DNA of 64,000 bases from Rhizobium etli 8C-3. Its GTDB lineage: Bacteria; Pseudomonadota; Alphaproteobacteria; Rhizobiales; Rhizobiaceae. This document shows, piece by piece, positions 18,167 to 64,000 of this stretch (within the stretch, counting starts at the first letter, position 1; each line of letters begins with the position of its first letter). The notes under the pieces were generated by a model, which worked only from the letters and a program-made list of their open reading frames with translations, ran no database searches and was not told the origin of the DNA. The position numbers and the translations under genes were made by a program. The DNA lies in NCBI RefSeq assembly GCF_001908375.1, contig NZ_CP017244.1:1302001-1366000 (forward strand). The letters are read 5' to 3'.

Positions 18167-19870
18167 ATGACCCTCAACGGATGGCTTCAGATCCTGCTTT
18201 ACTGCGGGATTGTCCTCGTGCTCGTCAAACCGCTCGGCGGCTACATGACGCGTGTCTTCAACGGTGAGCGCACGTTCCTCTCGCCGGTCCTCGTTCCGAT
18301 CGAACGGGGGCTCTATGGCATTGCCGGCACCAGCGATCGCGAGGAACAGCATTGGACCTCCTATGCTTTTTCAATGCTGCTTTTCAATTTCCTGGGCGTA
18401 CTCATGCTTTATGGATTGATGCGCTTGCAGGCCGGTCTGCCCTATAACCCCGCCGGCATGGCCTCCGTGCCGCCGGACCTGTCGTTCAACACCGCCGTCA
18501 GCTTCGTCACCAATACGAACTGGCAGAATTACAGCGGCGAAGGCACAATGTCCTACCTTACGCAGATGGCAGGGTTGACGGTTCAGAACTTCGTGTCGGC
18601 GTCAACCGGCATCGCCATCGCCGTCGGTTTGATCCGCGCCTTTGCGCGCGCCTCCGGCAAGGCAATCGGCAATTTCTGGGTCGATATGATCCGCGGCACG
18701 CTCTACGTGCTTCTGCCGCTCTGCATTGTACTGACGCTGATCTATGTTTACCTCGGCGTGCCGCAGACGCTCGGCCCTTACGTCGAAGCGACGACCCTTG
18801 AGGGCGCCAAACAGACGATCGCTGTTGGCCCCGTCGCCTCGCAGCTCGCAATCAAGATGCTCGGCACCAATGGCGGCGGTTTTTTCAATGCCAATTCCGC
18901 CCATCCCTTTGAAAATCCCGATGCCATCTCAAACCTCGTCCAGATGCTGTCGATCTTTGCGATCGGCGCAGCCTTGACCAACGTCTTCGGTCGCATGGTC
19001 GGCAACCAGCGTCAGGGCTGGGCGATCCTTGCCACCATGGGCATCCTGTTCGTCGTCGGCGTTGGCATCACCTACTGGGCAGAGGCCGCCGGCAACCCGC
19101 TGATGCACGCCTTCGGCCTCAATGGCGGCAATATGGAAGGCAAAGAAGTCCGCTTCGGCATTTCGCTCTCCTCGCTCTTTGCGGTCATCACGACTGCCGC
19201 TTCCTGCGGCGCGGTCAATGCCATGCATGGCAGCTTTACGGCACTCGGCGGGCTGGTCCCTCTCGTCAACATGCAGCTCGGCGAGATCATCGTAGGCGGT
19301 GTCGGCGCTGGCTTCTACGGCATCCTGCTCTTCATCATCGTTGCCGTGTTCGTGGCAGGCCTTATGGTCGGCCGCACACCGGAATATCTCGGCAAGAAGA
19401 TCGAAGCCAAGGAAATGAAGATGGCTGTCCTTGCCATTCTCTGCCTGCCTTTGGCGATGCTCGTCTTCACCGCGATTGCCACGGTGCTACCATCCGCCGT
19501 TGCCTCAGTCGGCACGACGGGTCCGCACGGCTTTTCGGAAATCCTCTATGCCTACACGTCGGCAGCAGCAAACAATGGTTCGGCTTTCGGTGGCCTGACG
19601 GGCAATACCCCCTGGTACAACATCACGCTCGGTATCGGCATGCTGATGGGCCGCTTCCTAGTCATCATTCCGGCGCTGGCAATCGCAGGTTCGCTGGTCA
19701 CCAAGAAGACGGTTCCGGCCTCCGCAGGCACCTTCCCGACCGATGGCTTGCTCTTCGTCGGGCTTCTGACGGGCACGATCCTGATCGTCGGTGGCCTCAC
19801 CTTCTTTCCGGCGCTGGCCCTCGGCCCGGTCGTCGAGCACCTGATGATGATCACCGGCCAGGCCTTCTGA
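18167..19870 (+). CDS. kdpA: K+-transporting ATPase subunit KdpA
   Basis: 567 aa, the normal length, with about ten membrane helices. KdpA is the potassium-selective, channel-like subunit of the KdpFABC P-type ATPase. Selectivity-filter repeats are visible, for example [12 protein letters not shown] near residue 110, [19 protein letters not shown] near 230, and [13 protein letters not shown] near 465. The start is the ATG at 18167 after a modest ribosome site. Together with kdpB and kdpC it forms the high-affinity K+ uptake system used at low external potassium. An unusually long gap (185 bp) with a perfect hairpin separates it from kdpB. Confidence 0.96.
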
Positions 19871-19913
19871 GGTGATGTCATGATCCTTCATCACAGGCTC
19901 CGACGTTCTTCAA

Positions 19914-19941
19914 TTCACGTCCCGGTTTGCCGGGACGTGAA
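19914..19941 (+). promoter_or_regulatory. Perfect 12-bp hairpin between kdpA and kdpB
   Basis: TTCACGTCCCGG and its exact reverse complement are separated by a four-base loop (TTTG). No T-run follows, so it is unlikely to be a simple terminator. A weaker 6-bp inverted repeat (GTGATG/CATCAC, 19872-19894) precedes it. In the middle of an operon such a stem may slow RNA decay, set the KdpA:KdpB ratio or be a processing site. Confidence 0.6.
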
Positions 19942-19950
19942 AGCGAGCGG

Positions 19951-20013
19951 ATGACGCGCGCCTCCAACATCATCCTCGTCATCCTCGCCGCCGTTCCAAT
20001 TCTTCACGGCTGA
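19951..20013 (+). CDS. Candidate 20-residue hydrophobic peptide between kdpA and kdpB
   Basis: ATG-initiated frame of 20 codons (MTRASNIILVILAAVPILHG) immediately after the hairpin. It is a short charged start followed by one hydrophobic stretch, which is membrane-peptide-like. The ribosome site is poor (GAAAGCGAGC). It fills part of the otherwise unexplained 185-bp kdpA-kdpB gap. It may be chance. No homolog is known to me. Confidence 0.22.
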   Translation: MTRASNIILVILAAVPILHG

Positions 20014-20055
20014 CCGCCCCAACGGTCACCTTACTCTTTCAAGCTGGAGTCTCTT

Positions 20056-22143
20056 ATGAGCCAGGCAAAGTCAGCGAGCATCGTGGATTCTCGCATCTTC
20101 ATTCCGGCCGTGGGCGCCGCTTTCAAGAAGCTTAACCCGCGCACCCTTGCCAAGAACCCCGTCATGTTTGTCGTGGCCACGGTTTCCGCCCTCACAACGA
20201 TCCTCTTTATCCGCGATCTTGTAGGCAGCGGCTCAGACCTGGGCTTCTCATTCCAGATCAATCTCTGGCTCTGGTTCACGGTGCTCTTTGCGAACTTCGC
20301 GGAGGCTGTCGCCGAGGGCCGCGGCAAGGCGCAGGCCGACTCACTCCGCAAGGCCCGCACGGAGACGCAGGCCAAGCTGCTTACCGACAACAACGGCAGC
20401 GGCTATCGCCTGGTGCCCGGTACGAGCCTCAAGGTCGGCGATCTCGTCCTCGTCGAGGCCGGCGACATCATCCCGTCCGACGGCGAAGTCGTCGAAGGTG
20501 TAGCCTCGGTCAACGAAGCCGCCATCACGGGCGAGTCTGCCCCGGTCATCCGCGAATCCGGCGGCGACCGCTCGGCTGTTACCGGTGGCACGCAGGTGCT
20601 TTCCGACTGGATCCGTGTTCGCATCACGGCGGCTGCCGGATCGACCTTCCTTGATCGCATGATCTCGCTTGTCGAAGGTGCGCAACGCCAGAAGACACCG
20701 AACGAGATCGCGCTCAATATCCTGCTCGCGGGCATGACGCTGATCTTCGTTCTTGCCACCGCGACGATCCCGAGCTTTGCGATCTATGCCGGCGGCTCGA
20801 TCCCGGTCATCATCCTCGTTGCACTCTTCGTGACATTGATCCCGACGACGATCGGCGCCCTGCTCTCGGCGATCGGAATTGCCGGCATGGACCGCCTCGT
20901 CCGCTTCAACGTGCTGGCCATGTCCGGCCGCGCCGTCGAAGCCGCCGGCGATGTGGACACGCTTTTGCTCGACAAGACCGGCACGATCACCCTCGGCAAC
21001 CGTCAGGCGACCGCATTCCATCCAGTCGGCGGCGTTTCCGAAGAGGAGCTTGCCGATGCAGCCCAGCTCGCTTCGCTTGCCGACGAAACGCCCGAAGGTC
21101 GCTCGATCGTCGTGCTCGCCAAGGAAAAGTACGCAATCCGCGGCCGGGAGATGGCGAACCTGAAGGCAAATTTCGTGCCCTTCACTGCCCAGACCCGCAT
21201 GAGCGGCGTCGACCTCGAGGCCTCGTCAATACGCAAGGGCGCAGTCGACGCAGTGCTTTCCTATGTCGGCTCAAGCTCTGCGTCCATCTCGGGCACGGCT
21301 TCGGTCGCCATTCGAAACAAAAGCGACGTGGTGAGGGAGCTGCAGGCAATTGCCGACCAGATTGCCAAGGCCGGCGGCACGCCGCTCGCCGTCGCCCGCA
21401 ACGGCCGTCTGCTTGGCGTCATCCAGCTCAAGGATATTGTCAAGGGCGGCATCCGCGAACGCTTCGCCGAATTGCGTCGCATGGGTATCCGCACAGTGAT
21501 GATCACCGGCGACAATCCGATGACCGCTGCTGCAATCGCCGCAGAAGCCGGCGTTGACGATTTTCTGGCACAGGCAACGCCGGAGAACAAGCTGACACTG
21601 ATCCGCCAGGAGCAGGCGAAAGGCAAGCTCGTCGCCATGTGCGGCGATGGCACCAACGACGCACCAGCCCTTGCCCAGGCCGATGTCGGTGTTGCGATGA
21701 ATACCGGCACGGTCGCCGCCCGTGAGGCAGGCAATATGGTCGACCTCGACAGCGATCCGACGAAGCTCATCGAGATCGTCGAAATCGGCAAGCAGCTGTT
21801 GATGACCCGCGGCGCGCTGACGACCTTTTCGATCGCCAACGATATCGCCAAGTACTTCGCCATCATCCCGGCGATGTTCTTGACCTTCTATCCGCAGCTT
21901 TCCGCACTGAACGTCATGGGTCTGTCGTCGCCGCAAAGCGCTATCCTGTCGGCAATCATCTTCAATGCGCTGATCATCATTGCGTTGATCCCCTTGTCGC
22001 TCAAAGGCGTGCGCTACCGTCCGATTGGTGCCGGCGCGCTGCTTTCGCGCAACCTTTTGATCTATGGACTTGGCGGTATCGTCGTCCCCTTCGTCGGCAT
22101 CAAGGCGATCGACATGCTGATCTCTGCTGCCCACCTCGCCTAA
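20056..22143 (+). CDS. kdpB: K+-transporting P-type ATPase subunit KdpB
   Basis: 695 aa catalytic subunit of the Kdp pump. It shows the actuator loop TGES ([10 protein letters not shown]), the phosphorylation site DKTGTIT with Asp306, the nucleotide-domain motifs (for example KGAVDAV), and the hinge [19 protein letters not shown]. Seven membrane helices are expected, with the Lys/Asp region near the C-terminal third. ATP hydrolysis here is coupled to K+ movement through KdpA. It begins after the hairpin-containing spacer and is 12 bp from kdpC. Confidence 0.97.
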
Positions 22144-22155
22144 GGAGTACGAGCA

Positions 22156-22725
22156 ATGTTGAAACAACTTCGTCCGGCAATCGTCATGATCCTTGCCACC
22201 ACGGCCATCACCGGCCTGCTTTACCCACTCGCCATGACAGGCGCTGCGCAAGCACTCTTTTCGGCGCAGGCAAACGGCAGCCTGGTCGAGAAAGACGGCC
22301 AGATTATCGGATCGGCGCTGATCGGCCAGGCCTTTACCACAGACAAATATTTCCACGGCCGTCCTTCGGCGGCAGGCGACGGCTACAATGCGGCAAGCTC
22401 CAGCGGTTCGAACCTTGGCCCTACCAGCCGAAAGCTGATCGACCGCGTGAAGGCCGACTACGAAGCGGCCAAGGCCATCAACCCTGGTGCAGAGGTCCCG
22501 ATCGATCTCGTGACCGCCTCCGGAAGCGGGCTTGACCCGGATATCTCGCCGGAAGCGGCTTACTTCCAGGTGCCGCGCGTCGCCAAGGCTCGCGACATGG
22601 ACGAGGCCGCGGTGAAAGCCCTGGTAGACAGCGTCCTTCGCAATCGTGAACTCGGCATCCTTGGCGAACCCACCGTCAATGTGCTGGCATTGAACCTGTC
22701 CCTTGATGCTTCTATGACTGAGTAA
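22156..22725 (+). CDS. kdpC: K+-transporting ATPase subunit KdpC
   Basis: 189 aa, one N-terminal membrane anchor (about residues 10-32) and a soluble periplasmic domain. Family hallmarks include [26 protein letters not shown], and the C-terminal [17 protein letters not shown]. KdpC stabilises the KdpAB complex and raises nucleotide affinity. It is preceded by AAGGAG and directly follows kdpB. Confidence 0.96.
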
Positions 22726-22788
22726 AGGCTGAGGGCCCCGGCACTCACTTGAGCGGGCCGGGCCTGGCTTTGAGGAAAGACGACACAC

Positions 22789-25497
22789 ATGCCGGACGAC
22801 AGAAGCGACCGGGCCCCAAGGCCCTCGCCGGACGCGCTTCTCGAGAAGGCGCGGGCCGAAACGCGCGGACGGCTGAAGATATTTCTCGGCGCCGCCCCTG
22901 GCGTCGGCAAGACTTATGAAATGCTGGTTTCCGGACGGGCAAAGCTTGCAGACGGCATCGACGTCGTTGTTGGGGTCGTCGAGACTCACGGCCGCAAGGA
23001 AACGCAGGCGCTGCTCGACGGCTTCAGTATCGTTCCGCGGGCGAAGGTCCAGTATAAGGGCCACACCCTGGAGGAGATGGATCTCGACGCCATCCTCGCC
23101 CGCAATCCGGATCTCGTCCTCGTCGATGAGCTCGCCCATACGAACGCAGAAGGCAGCCGCCACCCGAAACGTTATCTCGATGTCAGGGAGCTGCTGGACC
23201 GCGGCATCGATGTCTATACGACGTTGAATATCCAGCACGTCGAGAGCTTGAACGACGTCGTGTCGCAGATCACCCGTATCCGCGTTCGCGAGACCGTACC
23301 CGACTCGGTGATCGACATGGCTGACGATGTCGAGATCATCGATCTGACGCCCGACGACCTGATCAAACGCCTGCACGACGGCAAGGTCTATGTGCCGAAA
23401 ACGGCCGAGCGCGCGCTGAGCAACTATTTCACGCCAGGAAATCTGACGGCGCTTCGCGAACTCGCATTGCGCAAGACCGCACAGCGCGTCGACGACCAAC
23501 TCGTCAGCCATATGCAGGCGCATGCCATCTCCGGTCCCTGGGCAGCCGGCGAGCGTGTGCTCGTTTCGATCGATCACCATCGGCGATCAGCCTCGCTGGT
23601 GCGTTATGCTACGCGCATGGCTTCGCCACTGCGCGCGCCGTGGTCAGCGGTCTATATCGAAACCAATCAGTCGATCAGTTTGACAGAAGAACAGCGCGAT
23701 ACGATCGCTGCCACGCTAAGGCTCGCCGAGCGGTTAGGCGGCGAGGCTCTCACGCTTCCCGGCCGAGGGGTCGCCGAGGAATTGCTTCGCCACGCAGGCG
23801 CCAACAACGTAACACATATTGTCGTCGGGTCCCCAGAGAAGGCGACATGGCGCCAATGGTTTCAGCACTCGCCGGTCGACGAGCTGATCCGGGGCGCCGG
23901 TGATATCAGCGTTCACGTCATCTCCGGCAACGAGAAGGACGGCAATGAAGGTCGCGGCGTCAAGCCGGCACCCGCATTGCCGGCCTTCAACATCAGGGCC
24001 TATCTACTTGCAACGATCTACGTTGCGGCAGCACTCGCCTTCAGCACGGTGCTCGATCAGGTTCTGGATGTACGCAACCTTGCTCTTGTCTTCCTGATGG
24101 CCGTGCTCACCTCCGCCGTACTCCACGGCTTGCGACCGGCGCTCTACAGCTGCATTTTGGGCGCACTTGCCTTCAACTTCTTCTTCCTGCCGCCGCGTTT
24201 CACCCTGACGATCAGCGACCCCGAAAGCGTGGTCGCCTTCTTCTTCTTCATCGGCGTTGCCGTGATTGCGAGCAATCTCACAGCGACTGTTCAGCGCCAG
24301 GCAGCGGCCGCTCGCCAGCGTGCGCGCACCACCGAGGACCTTTATCTTTTTTCCCGCAAGCTCGCGAGCACCGGCACGCTCGACGATGTACTGTGGGCAA
24401 CGGCCTTTCAGATCGCCTCGATGCTCAAGGTGCGGGTCGTCCTGCTCCTGCCCGAAGCCGATACGATCGCAGTCAAGGCTGGATACCCGCCCGACGATAC
24501 GCTGGACGATGCCGACATCGCCGCAGCACGCTGGGCCTGGGAACACAACCACGCCGCCGGGCGCGGCGCCGATACGCTCCCCGGCGCCAAGCGCCTTTAT
24601 GTGCCGCTTAGAACCGGGCGCACAGCCGTCGGCGTCATCGGTCTCGATAGCGATCGCCGCGACGGCCCGCTCTTTACACCCGAACAGCAGCGGCTCCTGG
24701 ATGCGCTTGCCGATCAGGCAGCACTGGCCATCGAGCGCATACAGCTTGTGGCCGATGTCGATCGCGCCAAGCTTGCCGCCGAAGCCGATCGCCTGCGCTC
24801 TGCCTTGCTGACATCGATCTCGCACGATCTGAAGACCCCGCTCGCAGCAATTCTCGGCGCCGCCGGCACGCTGCGCAACTATTTCGGTTCCATGCCGATG
24901 GAGGACCGAAACGACCTTCTGGCGACGGTCGTCGATGAATCCGAACGGCTGAACCGGTTCATCGCCAACCTGCTCGACATGACGAAAATCGAATCCGGAG
25001 CCATGGAGGCGAACTATGGTCTGCACTATCCCGGCGACATTGCCGGCAGCGCACTGAGGCGGGCCGCCAAGATCCTTGAGCGTCATAAGCCTGAGATGAT
25101 CATGTCGGCTGACCTGCCGATGGTGCGCGTCGATCCGGTGCTGTTCGAACAGGCGCTCTTCAACCTGCTCGACAATGCAGCTAAATATGCACCCGAAGGT
25201 TCGGCGATCCGCATCGAGGGATGGTCCGACGCCGGAGAGGTCGTCATTCAGGTCGCCGACGAGGGCCCCGGCATTCCACCCGCTGACCTGACGCGCATCT
25301 TCGACACCTTCTACCGCTTCCGCAAGGGCGATCAGGTGCGCGCCGGAACGGGCCTTGGCCTTTCCATCTGCCGCGGTTTCATAGAAGCGATGGGCGGCAC
25401 GATCTTCGCCGGAAACCGCAAGGACCGCTCCGGTGCCATCTTTACCATCCGCATGCCAAAACCCAATGACATTCCAAAACTGGACGAACTCAAATGA
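22789..25497 (+). CDS. kdpD: Potassium-responsive sensor histidine kinase KdpD
   Basis: 902 aa, normal length. The N-terminal KdpD domain has Walker A GAAPGVGKT (34-42) and a Walker B-like DLVLVDELAHTN. A universal-stress-protein-like domain follows (about 245-370), then four membrane helices (about 400-500), a GAF domain, a HisKA domain with phospho-acceptor His679 (SISHDLKTP), and a HATPase domain with N, G1 and G2 boxes (LDNAAKYA, DEGPGIP, GTGLGLSI). It senses low K+ or ionic strength and phosphorylates KdpE. Its stop overlaps the kdpE start (ATGA, 25494-25497). A broken ptsN-like gene downstream is notable because PtsN proteins are known KdpD partners. Confidence 0.96.
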   Translation: MPDDRSDRAPRPSPDALLEKARAETRGRLKIFLGAAPGVGKTYEMLVSGRAKLADGIDVVVGVVETHGRKETQALLDGFSIVPRAKVQYKGHTLEEMDLDAILARNPDLVLVDELAHTNAEGSRHPKRYLDVRELLDRGIDVYTTLNIQHVESLNDVVSQITRIRVRETVPDSVIDMADDVEIIDLTPDDLIKRLHDGKVYVPKTAERALSNYFTPGNLTALRELALRKTAQRVDDQLVSHMQAHAISGPWAAGERVLVSIDHHRRSASLVRYATRMASPLRAPWSAVYIETNQSISLTEEQRDTIAATLRLAERLGGEALTLPGRGVAEELLRHAGANNVTHIVVGSPEKATWRQWFQHSPVDELIRGAGDISVHVISGNEKDGNEGRGVKPAPALPAFNIRAYLLATIYVAAALAFSTVLDQVLDVRNLALVFLMAVLTSAVLHGLRPALYSCILGALAFNFFFLPPRFTLTISDPESVVAFFFFIGVAVIASNLTATVQRQAAAARQRARTTEDLYLFSRKLASTGTLDDVLWATAFQIASMLKVRVVLLLPEADTIAVKAGYPPDDTLDDADIAAARWAWEHNHAAGRGADTLPGAKRLYVPLRTGRTAVGVIGLDSDRRDGPLFTPEQQRLLDALADQAALAIERIQLVADVDRAKLAAEADRLRSALLTSISHDLKTPLAAILGAAGTLRNYFGSMPMEDRNDLLATVVDESERLNRFIANLLDMTKIESGAMEANYGLHYPGDIAGSALRRAAKILERHKPEMIMSADLPMVRVDPVLFEQALFNLLDNAAKYAPEGSAIRIEGWSDAGEVVIQVADEGPGIPPADLTRIFDTFYRFRKGDQVRAGTGLGLSICRGFIEAMGGTIFAGNRKDRSGAIFTIRMPKPNDIPKLDELK

Positions 25498-27903: not shown

Positions 27904-28761
27904 ATGAAAGCACATAGCCCCACGCGGTGGCGGTTCAAACGGCCGAGCGTCATTCCAGGCTTTGGAATGGCGCTCGGCCTTACCTTGACCTGGCTCACCC
28001 TTTTGATCCTCATCCCCCTGTCAGGTCTCGCCTGGCGTTCGAGCGAACTCGGCTGGGACAAGTTCTCGCAAATTGCGTTCGATCCGCGAACGCTGAGCGC
28101 ACTTCGCATCAGCTTCGGCGCCGCCTTTGTCGCGGCCTGTGTCAACGCCGTTTTCGGTGTCGTCCTTGCGTGGGTGTTGGTGCGGTACCGTTTTGCCGGC
28201 AAGCGGATAATCGATGCTATGGTCGATCTGCCTTTTGCGCTGCCGACCGCAGTTGCCGGTATCGCTCTGACGACGCTCTACGCGCCGAACGGCTGGATAG
28301 GCCAGTTCCTGACGCCGCTTGGCATCAGGATAGCCTTTACACCGGTCGGCATCGTCGTTGCCCTCGTCTTTGTCGGCCTGCCTTTCGTCGTACGCACCGT
28401 GCAGCCGGTGATGGAAGAGATCGACAAGGAGGTGGAGGAAGCTGCCGCAACGCTTGGTGCCAATCGTTTCCAGACGATCTTCCGTGTCCTTCTTCCAGCA
28501 CTCGCGCCTGCCGTGTTGACAGGCTTTGCATTGGCCTTTGCACGCGGGGTCGGCGAATATGGCTCGGTCATCTTCATCGCCGGCAACTTGCCGTTCAAGT
28601 CAGAGATTGCGCCGCTTTTGATCGTCATCAAGCTGGAAGAATACAACTACGCGGCCGCGACAGGCATTGCGGCAGTCATGCTGATCATCTCTTTCATCAT
28701 GCTGCTCGTGATCAATCTCATCCAGAGCTGGAGCAGGCGGAGGTACGGTAATGGCATCTGA
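27904..28761 (+). CDS. cysT: Sulfate ABC transporter permease CysT (CysU)
   Basis: 285 aa, six-helix inner-membrane permease. It contains the conserved [19 protein letters not shown], the EAA loop ([23 protein letters not shown]) and [19 protein letters not shown] typical of CysT. The gene starts 8 bp after sbp and overlaps cysW by 11 bp. It makes the pore together with CysW. Confidence 0.94.
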
Positions 28762-57790: not shown

Positions 57791-58101
57791 CTATCCGCCG
57801 CCTGGCACTGCCTCCATCTCATCTACGCGCCGACACTGGCCGCCCCGGTACAGCGAGCCGGTGGCAAAGGGCCCGCTGACCCATCTTTAGGTTCTCGTCG
57901 CGCCCATGCCACGCCTTCAGCGCCAGGTCCTGGAGTGCGCGCCCATATGAAAAGGCGATCTTCCACGGCTTTGGCCCAGGCAGTTTGGATCCCGAGCGCG
58001 TTGAAACGCTTGGTCAAAGTGGGGACGGTCTCATCCGCAGCTAGAATACCCCTCCCCTTTGCGACGAGCGCCGCCGCGATGCTCCCCAGATCGTGATTCA
58101 T
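57791..58101 (-). pseudogene. Class I fructose-bisphosphate aldolase gene with a large internal deletion
   Basis: The N-terminus is clear (LGSIAAALVAKGRGILAADE, then LTKRFNALGI) and so is a C-terminal stretch in another frame (SYGRALQDLALKAWHGRDEN, later RRVDEMEAVPGG). The roughly 230 residues between them, including the Schiff-base lysine and most of the barrel, are missing. The join falls near 57950, after DRLF. The start at 58101 retains a good ribosome site (GAGGAGG). A functional aldolase cannot be made. The gene probably belonged to the same carbon-flow block as glgP and the DUF3141 operon. Confidence 0.7.
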
Positions 58102-58566: not shown

Positions 58567-58580
58567 TTGATCGAGATCAA
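58567..58580 (+). promoter_or_regulatory. FNR/FixK-type binding site (perfect palindrome)
   Basis: TTGATCGAGATCAA is an exact TTGAT-N4-ATCAA palindrome, the consensus for FNR/FixK/Anr regulators active under oxygen limitation. Its centre (58573.5) would lie at -41.5 for a start near 58615, the classic class II activator position. TACATG at 58603-58608 could serve as -10. An alternative TTGACA/TGCAAT pair (58584, 58607) overlaps. The DUF3141 ATG follows at 58657. Confidence 0.8.
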
Positions 58581-58656
58581 TGCTTGACACGCAGCATTGC
58601 TTTACATGCAATCGGAGATTGGGACCGAACTTCGGTCAAGCCGAGGAGTGGATTTT

Positions 58657-60858
58657 ATGCCTCAGCCCACCATCCCGACATTCGCAGATGCCTTCGCCTA
58701 TTCGCTCGATGCCTGGCAGCGCTCCGTCCTGTTTCTAGACGTCATGCGAAAGCGTGGCGAACAGTACGAGGAACATACGGCGCAGACTGCGCCGCACGTT
58801 CTGAACTACGACGCCGAACTTGTCGTTGACGGCCGCAAGCTCAATCGACCGGTCAATTACGCGCTCGTCCGGATCATCCCGCCCCAAGGCATTGTGGTCG
58901 ACTCACTGAAACGACCCTTCGTTGTTGTCGACCCGCGCGCCGGCCACGGACCCGGAATTGGCGGCTTCAAGGCCGACAGCGAGATCGGCGTGGCGATGAA
59001 GGCCGGCCACCCCTGCTATTTCATCGGCTTCCTTCCAGAACCCGTTCCTGGTCAGACCATCGAGGATATCGTCCGTGCCGAAGCGATCTTCATGGAAACG
59101 GTCATTGCCCGCCATCCCGAGGCCGACGGCAAGCCCTGCGCGATCGGCAACTGCCAGGCGGGCTGGGCGGTGATGATCCTGGCTTCGCTGCGTCCAGAAC
59201 TGTTCGGTCCGATCATTATTGCCGGCACACCGCTTTCCTATTGGGCGGGGGTCAGGGGCCAATACCCAATGCGCTATTCGGGCGGCCTGCTCGGCGGCAG
59301 CTGGCTGACGGCGCTCACGGGCGATCTTGGTGCCGGGATATTCGATGGCGCCTGGTTGGTCCAAAATTTCGAGAACCAGAACCCCGCCAATACCCTCTGG
59401 AGCAAGCCGTACAATCTCTACTCGAAAATAGACACCGAGGCCGAGCGCTACCTCGGCTTCGAGCGTTGGTGGGGCGGCCATGTGACGCTGAATGCCGAAG
59501 AGATGCAGTTCATCGTCGATGAGCTCTTCGTCGGCAACAAGCTCGCCGCCGGCGAGATCCGCACCTCCGACGGCACCGCCATCGACCTGCGCAATATTCA
59601 CGCTCCGATCGTCGTCTTCTGCTCGAAGGGCGACAACATCACACCGCCGCAGCAGGCACTCGACTGGATCCTCGACCTTTACGACAGCGTCGACGAGATT
59701 CGCGCGCACGGCCAGACCATTGTCTATGCCGTGCATGAGAAAATAGGGCACCTCGGCATCTTCGTCTCCGCCGGCGTCGCGCGCAAGGAGCACGACGAGT
59801 TCGCGTCCAACATCGATCTGATCGATGTTCTGCCGCCGGGTCTCTATGAAGCGGTGCTGGAGCCCGTGAGTGAAGTTGTTGAAGGCAGGGACTTGATCGC
59901 CGGCGAATGGGTGATGCGCTGCGAAGCCCGAACGCTGGACGATATCCGCGCTCTCGGGGGCAACGATCTCGAGGACGAGCGTAGCTTCGCCGCAGCCGCC
60001 AAGGTCTCCGATATCAATCTGGCACTTTACCGAACCTACCTGCAACCCGCGATCAGGGCCGTGGTCACACCGCCCATGGCCGAAGCGATGCGCCGCATGC
60101 ATCCGCTGCGCCTGCAGTACGAAATCTTCGGCCCGAGCAATCCGTTCATGGCCTGGATTCAGGCGGCCGCCGAGCATGCCAGCCAAAACCGCAAACACGC
60201 ATCCTCAGAGAACCCATTCCTGGCGCTGCAGGAAAACGTGTCGCGGCAGATCGTCGACGGGCTGGAGGCTTGGCGTCGGACGATCGAACGCCTTTCGGAG
60301 GATGCGTTCCGCACCGTCTATGGCTCGCCTGTGCTGCAGACCGCGCTCGGCATCGACAGCAAATCTGACCGCCGCCCGCGCAAGCCGGCAAAAAGCAGCC
60401 TACATGAGGCGCTGGTTGAAGCAAGGATCGCTTCGCTCAGAGCCGAGATTTCCGAGGGTGGCCTTCGAGAGGCCCTTGCCAGGGGCCTACTGTTCGTCGG
60501 AATGGCGCGCGGTGGTGCCGACGAGCGTGGCTTCGAGGCAATCCGCCGGCTGCGCCGTTCCCATCCGACGGCAAGTCAGTTGACGCTGCCGGAGTTCAAG
60601 GCGCTGCTGCGCAAGCAGTATTTCATACTCCTGGTCGACGAGGAGGCAGCCCTTTCGGCAATCCCGAACCTGCTGCCGGAGGACCTCGAGGAACGCCGCT
60701 CCGCCTTCAATTCGCTGCGGGAGGTCCTACAGGCGTCCGGAGCCGTGACCGGTGCCGCCGCCCAGCGACTGGAGCGCGTCGAGACGCTCTTTGGTCTCGG
60801 GAGTGAAACGGTGCCGTTCGTGGCGCGCAAGACCGCGCGCGAGCGCAAGACATCCTGA
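58657..60858 (+). CDS. DUF3141 protein, PHA-synthase-like alpha/beta hydrolase
   Basis: 733 aa. The N-terminal half (to about residue 420) is an alpha/beta hydrolase related to polyhydroxyalkanoate synthase (PhaC). Its nucleophile elbow reads IGNCQAGWA with Cys166 in the lipase box, preceded by VVDPRAGHGPGIGGFK. The C-terminal half is helical and hydrophilic with an RKARERK-like basic end. The ATG at 58657 is chosen because GAGGAG is correctly spaced. An upstream ATG at 58597 would lie in the promoter. It is not a proven PHA synthase, and the Asp/His partners were not verified. It leads an FNR-box operon with pta, ackA and fabI. Confidence 0.85.
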   Translation: MPQPTIPTFADAFAYSLDAWQRSVLFLDVMRKRGEQYEEHTAQTAPHVLNYDAELVVDGRKLNRPVNYALVRIIPPQGIVVDSLKRPFVVVDPRAGHGPGIGGFKADSEIGVAMKAGHPCYFIGFLPEPVPGQTIEDIVRAEAIFMETVIARHPEADGKPCAIGNCQAGWAVMILASLRPELFGPIIIAGTPLSYWAGVRGQYPMRYSGGLLGGSWLTALTGDLGAGIFDGAWLVQNFENQNPANTLWSKPYNLYSKIDTEAERYLGFERWWGGHVTLNAEEMQFIVDELFVGNKLAAGEIRTSDGTAIDLRNIHAPIVVFCSKGDNITPPQQALDWILDLYDSVDEIRAHGQTIVYAVHEKIGHLGIFVSAGVARKEHDEFASNIDLIDVLPPGLYEAVLEPVSEVVEGRDLIAGEWVMRCEARTLDDIRALGGNDLEDERSFAAAAKVSDINLALYRTYLQPAIRAVVTPPMAEAMRRMHPLRLQYEIFGPSNPFMAWIQAAAEHASQNRKHASSENPFLALQENVSRQIVDGLEAWRRTIERLSEDAFRTVYGSPVLQTALGIDSKSDRRPRKPAKSSLHEALVEARIASLRAEISEGGLREALARGLLFVGMARGGADERGFEAIRRLRRSHPTASQLTLPEFKALLRKQYFILLVDEEAALSAIPNLLPEDLEERRSAFNSLREVLQASGAVTGAAAQRLERVETLFGLGSETVPFVARKTARERKTS

Positions 60859-60881
60859 TTGAGCTGCTAGGAGGGTCCGTA

Positions 60882-61838
60882 GTGTCCGAGGTAATTGCAC
60901 TGACGTCAGAGCCGTCCAAGTACGACCGCCTGATTGCCGCCGCGCAGGCCGAAACGCCCGCGGTCACGATCGTTGCCCATCCCTGCGACGAAACCTCGTT
61001 GCGCGGAGCGCTTGAAGCGGCGGAAATGGGGCTCATCAAGCCGATACTCGTTGGACCGGAAGCGAAGATCCGCTATGTGGCGGCGGAGCATCGGCTCGAA
61101 ATCGGTGGCATCGAGATCGTCGATGTACCGCACAGTCACGCCGCCGCGGCCAAGGCGGTTGCGCTCATTCGTGAAGGCAAGGGCGAGCTTCTGATGAAAG
61201 GGAGCCTGCATACCGATGAATTGATGCATGCGGTAGCCGCCTCCGCCACAGGTCTCAGGACCGATCGGCGGATCAGCCATGTCTTCGTCATGGATGTCCC
61301 CGGCCATGCCGACACGCTCTTCATCACGGATGCCGCCATCAACATTTTTCCGGACCTCGAAGCCAAGCGTGACATCGTGCAGAACGCAATCGACCTCTGG
61401 GTGACGATCGGTCTCGGCGAGCCGCGGGTCGCGATCGTCTCGGCGGTTGAGACGGTCACGACGAAGATCCCCTCGACAATAGAAGCGGCGGCGCTGTGCA
61501 AGATGGCCGAACGCGGCCAGATCACGGGCGGCCTCATCGATGGGCCGCTCGCCTTCGACAATGCGATCGACCCTGAGGCGGCCCGCATCAAGGGCATCAG
61601 GTCCCCGGTTGCCGGCCACGCCCAGATTATCGTTGTACCGGACCTCGAGGCCGGCAACATGCTCGCCAAGAACCTGACCTTTCTTTCCCATGCCGACGCG
61701 GCCGGTATCGTTCTAGGCGCGCGCGTGCCTATCGTGCTGACGTCGCGGGCCGATTCGGTGCGAACCCGCCTCGCTTCTTGCGCAGTCGCGGCACTCTTCG
61801 CGGCTCGGCGGCGCGCGACACAAGTAGCGGCGGTCTAA
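60882..61838 (+). CDS. pta: Phosphate acetyl/butyryltransferase
   Basis: 318 aa, the short catalytic PTA_PTB form without an N-terminal DRTGG domain. It shows [14 protein letters not shown] near residue 48, [13 protein letters not shown], and [13 protein letters not shown] with the later [25 protein letters not shown]. It interconverts acyl-CoA and acyl-phosphate with acetate kinase, encoded 4 bp downstream. The start is GTG at 60882 after AGGAGGG. It could act on acetyl or on longer acyl groups. Being linked to a PhaC-like protein, a butyryl role is not excluded. Confidence 0.9.
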
Positions 61839-61842
61839 CGCC

Positions 61843-63027
61843 ATGGACGCAATCCTCGTCGTCAACGCCGGCTCATCGAGCTTGAAGTTCCAGGTCTTCG
61901 GCATCGCCGACGCCAACCTGACGCGCCAGGTGCGCGGCCAGATCGGCGGCATCGGTACGCGGCCACGACTGCAGGCAAAGAAGGCCGATGGAACGGTCCT
62001 CATTGATCGAAGCTACGCCGCGGAAGCAGTGCGCGACCTTCCAGCCGCCATTGCCGCAGCACGCGAATGGCTGCTGACACTCGACGGGTTCGAACTGCGG
62101 GCGATCGGCCACCGTGTTGTCCACGGCGGCCCTGACTACGCGCAGCCTGTGTTGATCGATACGACAGTGCTCGACCGTCTCGCCAGCTACCAGGATCTTG
62201 CGCCGCTGCACCAACCGAACAATCTGGCGCCAATCCGGCTCGCCATGGAGATCAATCCCGATGTGCCGCAGGTCGCCTGTTTCGATACGGCCTTCCACCG
62301 CGGGCACCCCGAGCATGCCGATTGCTACGCGCTACCGCGGGCGTTTTATGACCAGGGCGTGCGGCGTTACGGCTTCCATGGCCTTTCTTACGAATACGTC
62401 GCCGAGCGGCTGAGCGAGATTGCCCCCGAAGCGGCGCGCGGCAAGGTCATTGTCGCGCATCTCGGTAGTGGCGCGTCGATGTGCGCGCTGCGCGAAGGCC
62501 ACAGCGTCGAGAGCACGATGGGCTTCACGGCGCTCAATGGTCTGCCGATGGGAACGCGGCCGGGCCAGCTCGATCCGGGCGTCGTGCTCTATCTGATCAT
62601 CCACAAGGGCATGAGCGCGCAAGCCGTCTCGGATCTGCTTTACCACGATGCCGGGCTCAAAGGGCTTTCCGGCCTGTCAAACGACATGCGCGATCTTCTC
62701 GCGAGCGACGATCCCCATGCTCAACTTGCTATGGCCCACTTCGTATATCGATGCGTTCTCAATTCAGGAATGCTCGCAGCGGCACTGGGGGGCGTCGATG
62801 CGTTCGTATTCACGGCCGGCGTCGGCGAGAATTCCGCTCGTGTCCGCGCACGCATCGTGGAGGGCCTCGCGTGGCTCGGGGCGGAGCTCGACCCGCTGGC
62901 GAATGAGGCTGGCGCCAGTTTGATCTCCACGGCCAGGAGCCGCGTTGCCTTGCATGTCATTCCGACCGACGAGGAATTGATGATCGCGCGCCACACGCTC
63001 ACGATCATCAGTGCCCCCAACGCCTGA
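61843..63027 (+). CDS. ackA: Acetate kinase (acetate/propionate family)
   Basis: 394 aa, normal length. [12 protein letters not shown] at the N-terminus and the actin-fold motifs [37 protein letters not shown] and [13 protein letters not shown] are all present. It makes ATP from acyl-phosphate supplied by the adjacent transferase, giving substrate-level phosphorylation when oxygen is short. It is encoded 4 bp after pta and 17 bp before fabI in the FNR-box operon. Confidence 0.95.
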
Positions 63028-63044
63028 ACCCCGGAGGCAAGCCG

Positions 63045-63830
63045 ATGTCCATTCCCACCGTCAAGACCAAGCTTCTCGAAGGTCGCAAGGGCCTGATCGT
63101 CGGCATTGCCAATGATCGATCGATCGCCTGGGGCTGCGCCAGGGCCTTTCGCGCCCTCGGAGCGGAACTTGCCGTGACCTACCTAAACGACAAGGCGAGA
63201 CCCTATGTCGAGCCGCTGGCGCGCGAGCTCGAGTCGCCGATCTTCCTACCTTTGGACGTTGCTGTGCCAGGCCAGATCGAAGCGGTCTTCGAGCGCATCG
63301 GTGAGGTCTGGGGAGAGCTCGATTTCCTCGTCCACTCGATCGCTTTCTCTCCGAAAGACACGCTCGGCGGGCGCGTCACCGACGCTCCGCGCGAGGGTTT
63401 CCTGACGACGATGGAGATATCCTGCTGGTCCTTCATCCGCATGGCCCAGCTCGCCGAGCCGTTGATGAAGAATGGCGGCACGCTCTTCACCATGACCTAC
63501 TACGGGTCACAGGTGGTGGTGGAAAACTACAACATCATGGGCGTCGCCAAGGCGGCGCTCGAAAGCGCCGTCCGCTACATGGCAGCCGAACTCGGCGCCA
63601 AGGGCATCCGCGTGCATGCCATATCCCCCGGAGCGCTTGCAACTCGGGCCGCCTCGGGCATCCCTGAATTCGACGCACTGCTTGAAAAGACAAAGCTGAA
63701 GGCGCCGACGCGCGAACTCGTCGACATCGATGACGTCGGTATGGCGACGGCCTTTCTCGCGCACGATGCAGCGCGACTGATTACCGGCCAGGTGCTCTAC
63801 GTCGATGGTGGCTACCACATCATCGACTGA
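63045..63830 (+). CDS. fabI: Enoyl-ACP reductase FabI
   Basis: 261 aa SDR-type enoyl reductase. The NAD site is GIANDRSIAWGCARAF. The FabI-type catalytic Tyr-x6-Lys is ENYNIMGVAKAALE, with HSIAFSPK and ISPGALATRAASGI. It reduces enoyl-ACP in fatty acid synthesis and is the target of triclosan-like inhibitors. The ATG at 63045 follows GGAGGC. As the fourth gene of an oxygen-regulated operon it is probably a second, conditional copy, the housekeeping fabI being elsewhere. It could help dispose of NADH or supply acyl chains when respiration slows. Confidence 0.92.
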   Translation: MSIPTVKTKLLEGRKGLIVGIANDRSIAWGCARAFRALGAELAVTYLNDKARPYVEPLARELESPIFLPLDVAVPGQIEAVFERIGEVWGELDFLVHSIAFSPKDTLGGRVTDAPREGFLTTMEISCWSFIRMAQLAEPLMKNGGTLFTMTYYGSQVVVENYNIMGVAKAALESAVRYMAAELGAKGIRVHAISPGALATRAASGIPEFDALLEKTKLKAPTRELVDIDDVGMATAFLAHDAARLITGQVLYVDGGYHIID

Positions 63831-64000
63831 TGCCGGCGGCCGACACGCTCGCCATGCAACACCCGCTGATTGCCAATGATTTCAGTGGTGATTGGCTTCA
63901 TTCGATCCGGTCGATTCGCTAACTCCGCGCCGGCTTCCTTGTCATCCATCGAATATGTCGATCGACTCGGCTCGTCCCTTCAGACGAGGCAAGTCGACAC
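63831..64000. other. Right-hand end, no gene recognised
   Basis: 170 bp after fabI with no recognisable gene. GCCAAT and ATTGGC (about 63873-63897) form a 6-bp inverted repeat with a long loop, too weak for a confident terminator. Confidence 0.3.

Follow-up and report, generated by a model that had tools for sequence, protein, structure and literature searches.

The window analysed here comprises 64,000 nucleotides of Rhizobium etli 8C-3 (NZ_CP017244.1, positions 1,302,001 to 1,366,000), belongs to a replicon of 2.25 Mb in a genome of 7.3 Mb in four contigs, and carries an operon of four genes behind an FNR/FixK-type palindrome. The palindrome, TTGATCGAGATCAA, occupies positions 58567-58580 and is a perfect TTGAT-N4-ATCAA box, as the initial annotation had claimed, recognised from the sequence itself, from relatives and from a promoter alignment. 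On the plus strand follow the genes for a DUF3141 protein of 733 amino acids (58657-60858), a phosphotransacylase of the Pta/Ptb family with a GTG start (60882-61838), the acetate/propionate-family kinase AckA (61843-63027) and the enoyl reductase FabI (PRK07533, 63045-63830), all assigned by profile matches, with structure comparison in addition for DUF3141. This order and the intergenic gaps of 23 bp (DUF3141-Pta), 4 bp (Pta-AckA) and 17 bp (AckA-FabI) agree with the tight four-gene unit described earlier. The DUF3141 start was placed at ATG 58657, a codon invariant across 12 aligned promoters and served by a GAGGAG ribosome site, although the lists of open reading frames (ORFs) give TTG 58597; the box lies 90 bp upstream of this ATG. 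The proposed class II distance of the box is possible: a centre at -41.5 would put the transcription start near 58615, behind a weak -10-like TACATG (58603-58608, plus strand) that the promoter scan did not pick up, and that scan found no sigma-70 consensus promoter.

The likeness of the DUF3141 protein to the polyhydroxyalkanoate (PHA) synthase PhaC, also noted in the initial annotation, was borne out in fold and residues. The protein (941 bits to its family profile) has an alpha/beta-hydrolase domain of PHA-synthase-like fold in structure comparison, and its Cys166 (59152-59154), Asp326 (59632-59634) and His365 (59749-59751), corresponding to the PhaC triad, are identical in 123 of 123 sequences. 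Unlike class I PhaC, with which it shares 14-17% identity in structural alignments, it has an extra helical C-terminal domain (60385-60807, plus strand), with a weak fold match to TerB-like proteins, and gave no Pfam match to PhaC_N at E 0.001; among curated PhaC models only TIGR01836 responded, at 23 bits against a cut-off of 365. The supposed phosphotransacetylase does belong to the phosphotransacylase family but is Ptb-like: its score to phosphate butyryltransferase is well above that to classical Pta, with neither cut-off reached. It is the only standalone phosphotransacylase found in the genome; the remaining two PTA_PTB matches fall within open frames of 773 and 793 amino acids, which are probably malic enzymes. 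AckA, one of two in the genome, exceeds the cut-offs of the acetate kinase families PF00871 (359 against 22 bits) and TIGR00016 (354 against 293 bits). FabI exceeds that of NF005717 (438 against 337 bits) and its translation contains Tyr-x6-Lys, which we take to be the FabI motif; two further FabI-like genes on contig 1 are 47 and 51% identical to it.

The perfect TTGAT-N4-ATCAA pattern occurs at 20 sites in the genome, against none for the reversed pattern and about 1.8 expected from the base composition of the window. The window holds two of these sites, and the context of the remaining 18 was examined. Perfect sites were found shortly before genes for a universal stress protein, a cytochrome c assembly protein, the cbb3 oxidase subunit ccoN, a CBS-BON protein, a cation ATPase, an AAA protein, an FnrL/FnrN-like regulator and another Crp-type regulator. 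The FnrL/FnrN-like protein has a CxxC-x7-C motif, scores 220 bits, under the FnrL cut-off of 300, and is preceded by two boxes. The genes behind these other boxes are consistent with an oxygen regulon.

The conservation of the box was examined in relatives, namely the best 80 of 219, picked by exact peptide patterns of the window DUF3141 and therefore biased to close relatives. The FixK2 consensus is given as TTGA/C-N6-T/GCAA in the available part of PMC9104804. The core TTGA-N6-TCAA, conserved upstream of the operon and present in the window promoter, was found at -150 to -40 in 49 of the 80 named-genome relatives, which are not independent of one another, against 6 of 800 equal-length segments of the same loci. 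The box upstream of the operon is thus more than chance. By label, it was present in all 28 Bradyrhizobium copies and in 12 of 14 of Sinorhizobium/Ensifer type (L066-L077, L084 and L097). In the alignment of 12 promoters, which joins the window with 11 selected from the 15 Sinorhizobium/Ensifer-type rows including L063, runs of at least three invariant columns upstream of the ribosome site occur only at the TTGA and the TCA of the box. Among nine operons of the window's own genus, the core occurs within 420 bp in one only (L035, at -268), and in the phylum-wide locus L192 it stands before FabI. The box before the DUF3141 operon is lineage-specific.

Other copies of the operon carry other switches. 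A PHO-like promoter, scanned for as an 18-bp box, N10 and a TATGCT-like -10, was recognised at -190 to -227 in 10 of the 15 Sinorhizobium/Ensifer-type promoters, with scores of 15-17 out of 20 reached by 0-2 of 100 shuffles; these shuffle values are optimistic, as S. meliloti and Rhizobium promoters had been viewed before the consensus was completed with its second half-site and its -10. It was not recognised in L069, L070, L071, L075 and L084. The S. meliloti promoter scored 17 out of 20, with no shuffle as good, and PHO-like promoters in such copies accord with PhoB control as published for S. meliloti. Upstream of the window operon none was recognised, the score of 12 being reached by 60 of 100 shuffles. 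The comparison suggests that the window copy has the low-oxygen promoter only; its PHO-like promoter may have disappeared during transfer or may never have been present in the donor, some Sinorhizobium being without one as well. The nine own-genus operons keep the operator CTACCGTAnnATACGTT beside a -35/-10 pair (TTGG-N17-TATGCT; L031-L039, for example L033:9619-9949). Allowing at most one mismatch, this operator was found at the operon in 9 of 9 carriers, at one extra site in G024 and nowhere in G000, with 5 control matches over 10 genomes.

Whether DUF3141 genes usually neighbour the other three was asked by counting Pta, AckA and FabI within 6 kb. In the named genomes all three partners were present at 67 of 80 loci, Pta and FabI at 5, FabI only at 5, Pta only at 1 and none at 2, one of which (L127) is on a short contig. 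In a phylum draw of 398 genomes (two draws taken as one set, their handles agreeing where listed), 27 had DUF3141 at E 1e-30, and 24 of these gave 25 loci, G000 and G029, which were looked at separately, and G309 being left out. All three partners accompanied DUF3141 at 15 of these loci, Pta and AckA at one (with FabI 7 kb off) and FabI alone at one. DUF3141 is therefore not mostly found apart from pta, ackA and fabI. In a genus and order set all three occurred at 10 of 17 loci, FabI only at one and none at six, these six being a divergent DUF3141 paralog that is split in five. A MaoC hydratase is fused to Pta at 4 of the 25 phylum loci (16 of which have Pta) and at 1 of the 17 genus and order loci (L041), against none of the 80 named loci. 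For Azospirillum B510 and Acidiphilium the gene table, which is incomplete, shows none of the partners near DUF3141. Since gene order varies between lineages, the recurring company argues for a functional link between DUF3141, Pta, AckA and FabI. Integrase or transposase genes near the cassette in Caballeronia and Burkholderia plasmids fit its mobility.

The window copy itself appears to be foreign to its genus. The block from the box to position 63843 (58567-63843, plus strand) is 85-88% identical to S. fredii records over 58616-63843 (from 58616 or 58620) and alignable upstream as far as the box. A quick-method tree of DUF3141 with 96 rows groups the window with S. fredii and S. shofinae in a set of three rows with support 97, and the nine own-genus orthologs, 65.6-68.4% identical to the window protein, form with Phyllobacterium sp. 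2063 a separate set of 10 rows with support 100. Because of this grouping and DNA identity, and because the genus has another version, the operon was most likely acquired from a Sinorhizobium by horizontal transfer. Elsewhere, window positions 40-53 kb match megaplasmids of Rhizobium gallicum and two further Rhizobium strains, the best five records being 88.8-90.7% identical and covering 38-48% of a 24-kb query.

The operon as such is already known, and the window copy is a member of a published family. The S. meliloti ORF(orfA)-pta-ackA-fabI operon was described in 1999 (Summers et al., J Bacteriol 181:2217) as phosphate-regulated, according to a citing passage in PMC8231600. Its four genes and their order are those of the window operon, where they are tightly spaced, and an S. 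meliloti pSymA copy, likewise in this order, has a DUF3141 that is 81% identical to that of the window; the published control is by PhoB, whereas the window copy has a perfect FNR box and no recognised PHO-like promoter. What is new here is an S. fredii-type copy, lacking the PHO-like promoter, in a genus with another version. In B. diazoefficiens, the available part of PMC10888616 describes blr3456-blr3459 with the hypothetical protein-pta-ackA order of the window in a microoxic setting; from gene order, we infer that blr3456 is DUF3141 and blr3459 FabI. Its link to PhaR, a regulator of poly(3-hydroxybutyrate) (PHB), is reported for B. diazoefficiens, where the operon stands at 7.2 in a phaR mutant (PMC10888616). 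The Burkholderia clusters phaC / phaJ-pta / ackA / fabI / phaB of groups D1-D2, in the accessible text of PMC8231600, likewise combine pta, ackA and fabI with a gene resembling phaC, with Pta fused to an (R)-hydratase in group D1 and unfused in the window. The window Pta also resembles Ptb of the clostridial ptb-buk pair, although its kinase is of AckA type and not Buk. In clostridia, ptb-buk converts acyl-CoA through acyl-phosphate to ATP, with a butyryl-CoA dehydrogenase where the window has FabI.

Among the 27 draw genomes with DUF3141, all have PhaC_N (at E 1e-60 or better), compared with 207 of 371 others at E 0.001 (Fisher p 3e-7, not corrected for relatedness). The interpretation we favour, with about an even chance of being right, is that the operon is an acquired, FNR/FixK-switched cassette that would form ATP at low oxygen by substrate-level phosphorylation from short acyl-CoA, in connection with PHB; the ATP-forming half of this interpretation is likely. 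A four-carbon (C4, butyrate) route is suggested by the PhaC_N co-occurrence, the Ptb-like Pta, the MaoC-Pta fusions and the B. diazoefficiens phaR-mutant result. In this route DUF3141 would release (R)-3-hydroxybutyryl-CoA from PHB through CoA thiolysis, and a MaoC/PhaJ-type hydratase, Pta-fused in other lineages and here encoded elsewhere (four MaoC matches in the genome could supply it), would make crotonyl-CoA. FabI would then reduce crotonyl-CoA to butyryl-CoA with NADH, the Ptb-like Pta would form butyryl-phosphate and AckA would yield ATP and butyrate, so that ATP would be gained and NADH reoxidised without oxygen. This exact butyrate route is less probable than the general interpretation. 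Its far-reaching form, that DUF3141-(MaoC-)Pta-AckA-FabI is a widespread, mobile PHB-to-butyrate fermentation with DUF3141 as a thiolytic PHB depolymerase on a PHA-synthase fold and FabI as a crotonyl-CoA reductase, has a rather low probability.

Several observations weigh against the PHB-linked interpretation or its low-oxygen switch. Pta stays below the cut-off of phosphate butyryltransferase TIGR02706 (304.6 against 410.5 bits) and exceeds that of the PRK11890 phosphate acetyltransferase NF008852 (530 against 413 bits), AckA is of acetate/propionate type with butyrate kinase models far under cut-off, and the FabI models carry names for acyl carrier protein (ACP) substrates. Acetate kinase and phosphotransacetylase were reportedly the activities measured by Summers in 1999, in work that showed control by phosphate. 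Two of the triad residues, Asp326 and His365, fall in stretches where the predicted local distance difference test (pLDDT) is below 50, so the triad is known from sequence and not from geometry. In the phylum draw, 8 of the 25 DUF3141 loci are without any partner (L185 and L197 near contig ends). Five of the 18 other perfect boxes (L050, L052, the first of L055, L061 and L062) lie inside ORFs of at least 236 amino acids, and the second perfect site in the window (28618) is within the ORF 27904-28761. FNR/FixK control is supported by sequence for the window copy, Sinorhizobium/Ensifer, Bradyrhizobium and some other lineages, and fails as a general rule: TTGA-N6-TCAA was found at -150 to -40 in 0 of 9 own-genus operons and before DUF3141 in 5 of 25 phylum-draw loci, all of one genus, leaving 20 without it. 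In the phaR mutant of B. diazoefficiens most FixK2 targets are also raised, so the phaR effect on the operon may be indirect, via FixK2, and no direct PhaR binding to blr3456 was seen in the part of PMC10888616 available.

Acetate overflow, in which Pta-AckA would make acetate and ATP from acetyl-CoA at low oxygen with DUF3141 and FabI in separate lipid or PHB steps, is the alternative we consider possible. The model names and the AckA type favour it, and it is how pta and ackA are interpreted in the B. diazoefficiens paper (PMC10888616, in the available part), but it leaves unexplained both the MaoC-Pta fusions and the pairing of FabI with DUF3141 where AckA was not found (the 5 Pta+FabI and 5 FabI-only loci among the 80). 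The same enzymes might run in reverse, so that acetate would be assimilated into PHA and DUF3141 would serve as a PHA synthase of an unusual kind. This direction was proposed for the Burkholderia phaC / phaJ-pta / ackA clusters (PMC8231600, in the accessible text) and suits the PhaC-like fold and Cys triad of DUF3141, but all 27 DUF3141-bearing genomes of the draw already have a PhaC_N protein, FabI would have no clear role, and a low-oxygen switch favours ATP gain; we hold it to be unlikely.

The published phosphate regulation in S. meliloti (citing passage in PMC8231600), together with the PHO-like promoters at -190 to -227, would accord with a mainly phosphate-stress (PhoB) operon that buffers or recycles acetyl-phosphate, oxygen being secondary. 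For the window copy, which lacks a PHO-like promoter but has a perfect FNR box, this is quite improbable. Least probable is a role in membrane lipids, with FabI helping to make acyl chains and a PlsX-like Pta turning them into acyl-phosphate: FabI is the commonest DUF3141 partner among the named genomes, at 77 of 80 loci, but AckA would use up the acyl-phosphate and Pta is Ptb/Pta-like in sequence.

Some observations concern DUF3141 copies elsewhere and the operon's surroundings. A second, divergent DUF3141 copy, L047 (G000:C3:106708-108325, contig 3), is disrupted by a frame change and by a stop; its relatives in G005, G012, G023 and G034 are split early in the protein, that in G009 is intact, and no pta, ackA or fabI was found within 6 kb of any of these copies. 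In L195 and L196 DUF3141 lacks the C-terminal domain (domains tested in L195 only) and stands with FabI, and the genes that come next encode a Rieske protein and a CBS-BON protein. Similar-looking small proteins without Pfam match are encoded near standalone DUF3141 genes in L183 (14271-14783) and L197 (10261-10752). A glycogen phosphorylase gene (PF00343, 54371-56908) precedes the window operon by about 1.7 kb, and in Pararhizobium A13 the operon adjoins genes for a CBS protein and glycogen phosphorylase. The short minus-strand ORF 57823-58101, upstream of the operon, matches class I fructose-bisphosphate aldolase at positions 2-37 only and is probably a gene remnant. At 18167-25497, a run of four ORFs (567, 695, 189 and 902 amino acids) followed by one of 230 amino acids presumably resembles kdpABCD.

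The switch of the operon appears to differ between lineages: many Sinorhizobium combine a PHO-like promoter with FNR, the window copy has FNR alone, and Rhizobium-type copies have a third operator. PHB is a main store in many aerobic soil and symbiotic bacteria. If the PHB-linked interpretation is true, such aerobes would use their storage polymer to gain ATP and keep redox balance once oxygen disappears; the cassette would be a concrete enzyme set for PHB use in survival without oxygen, and DUF3141 would gain a candidate function.
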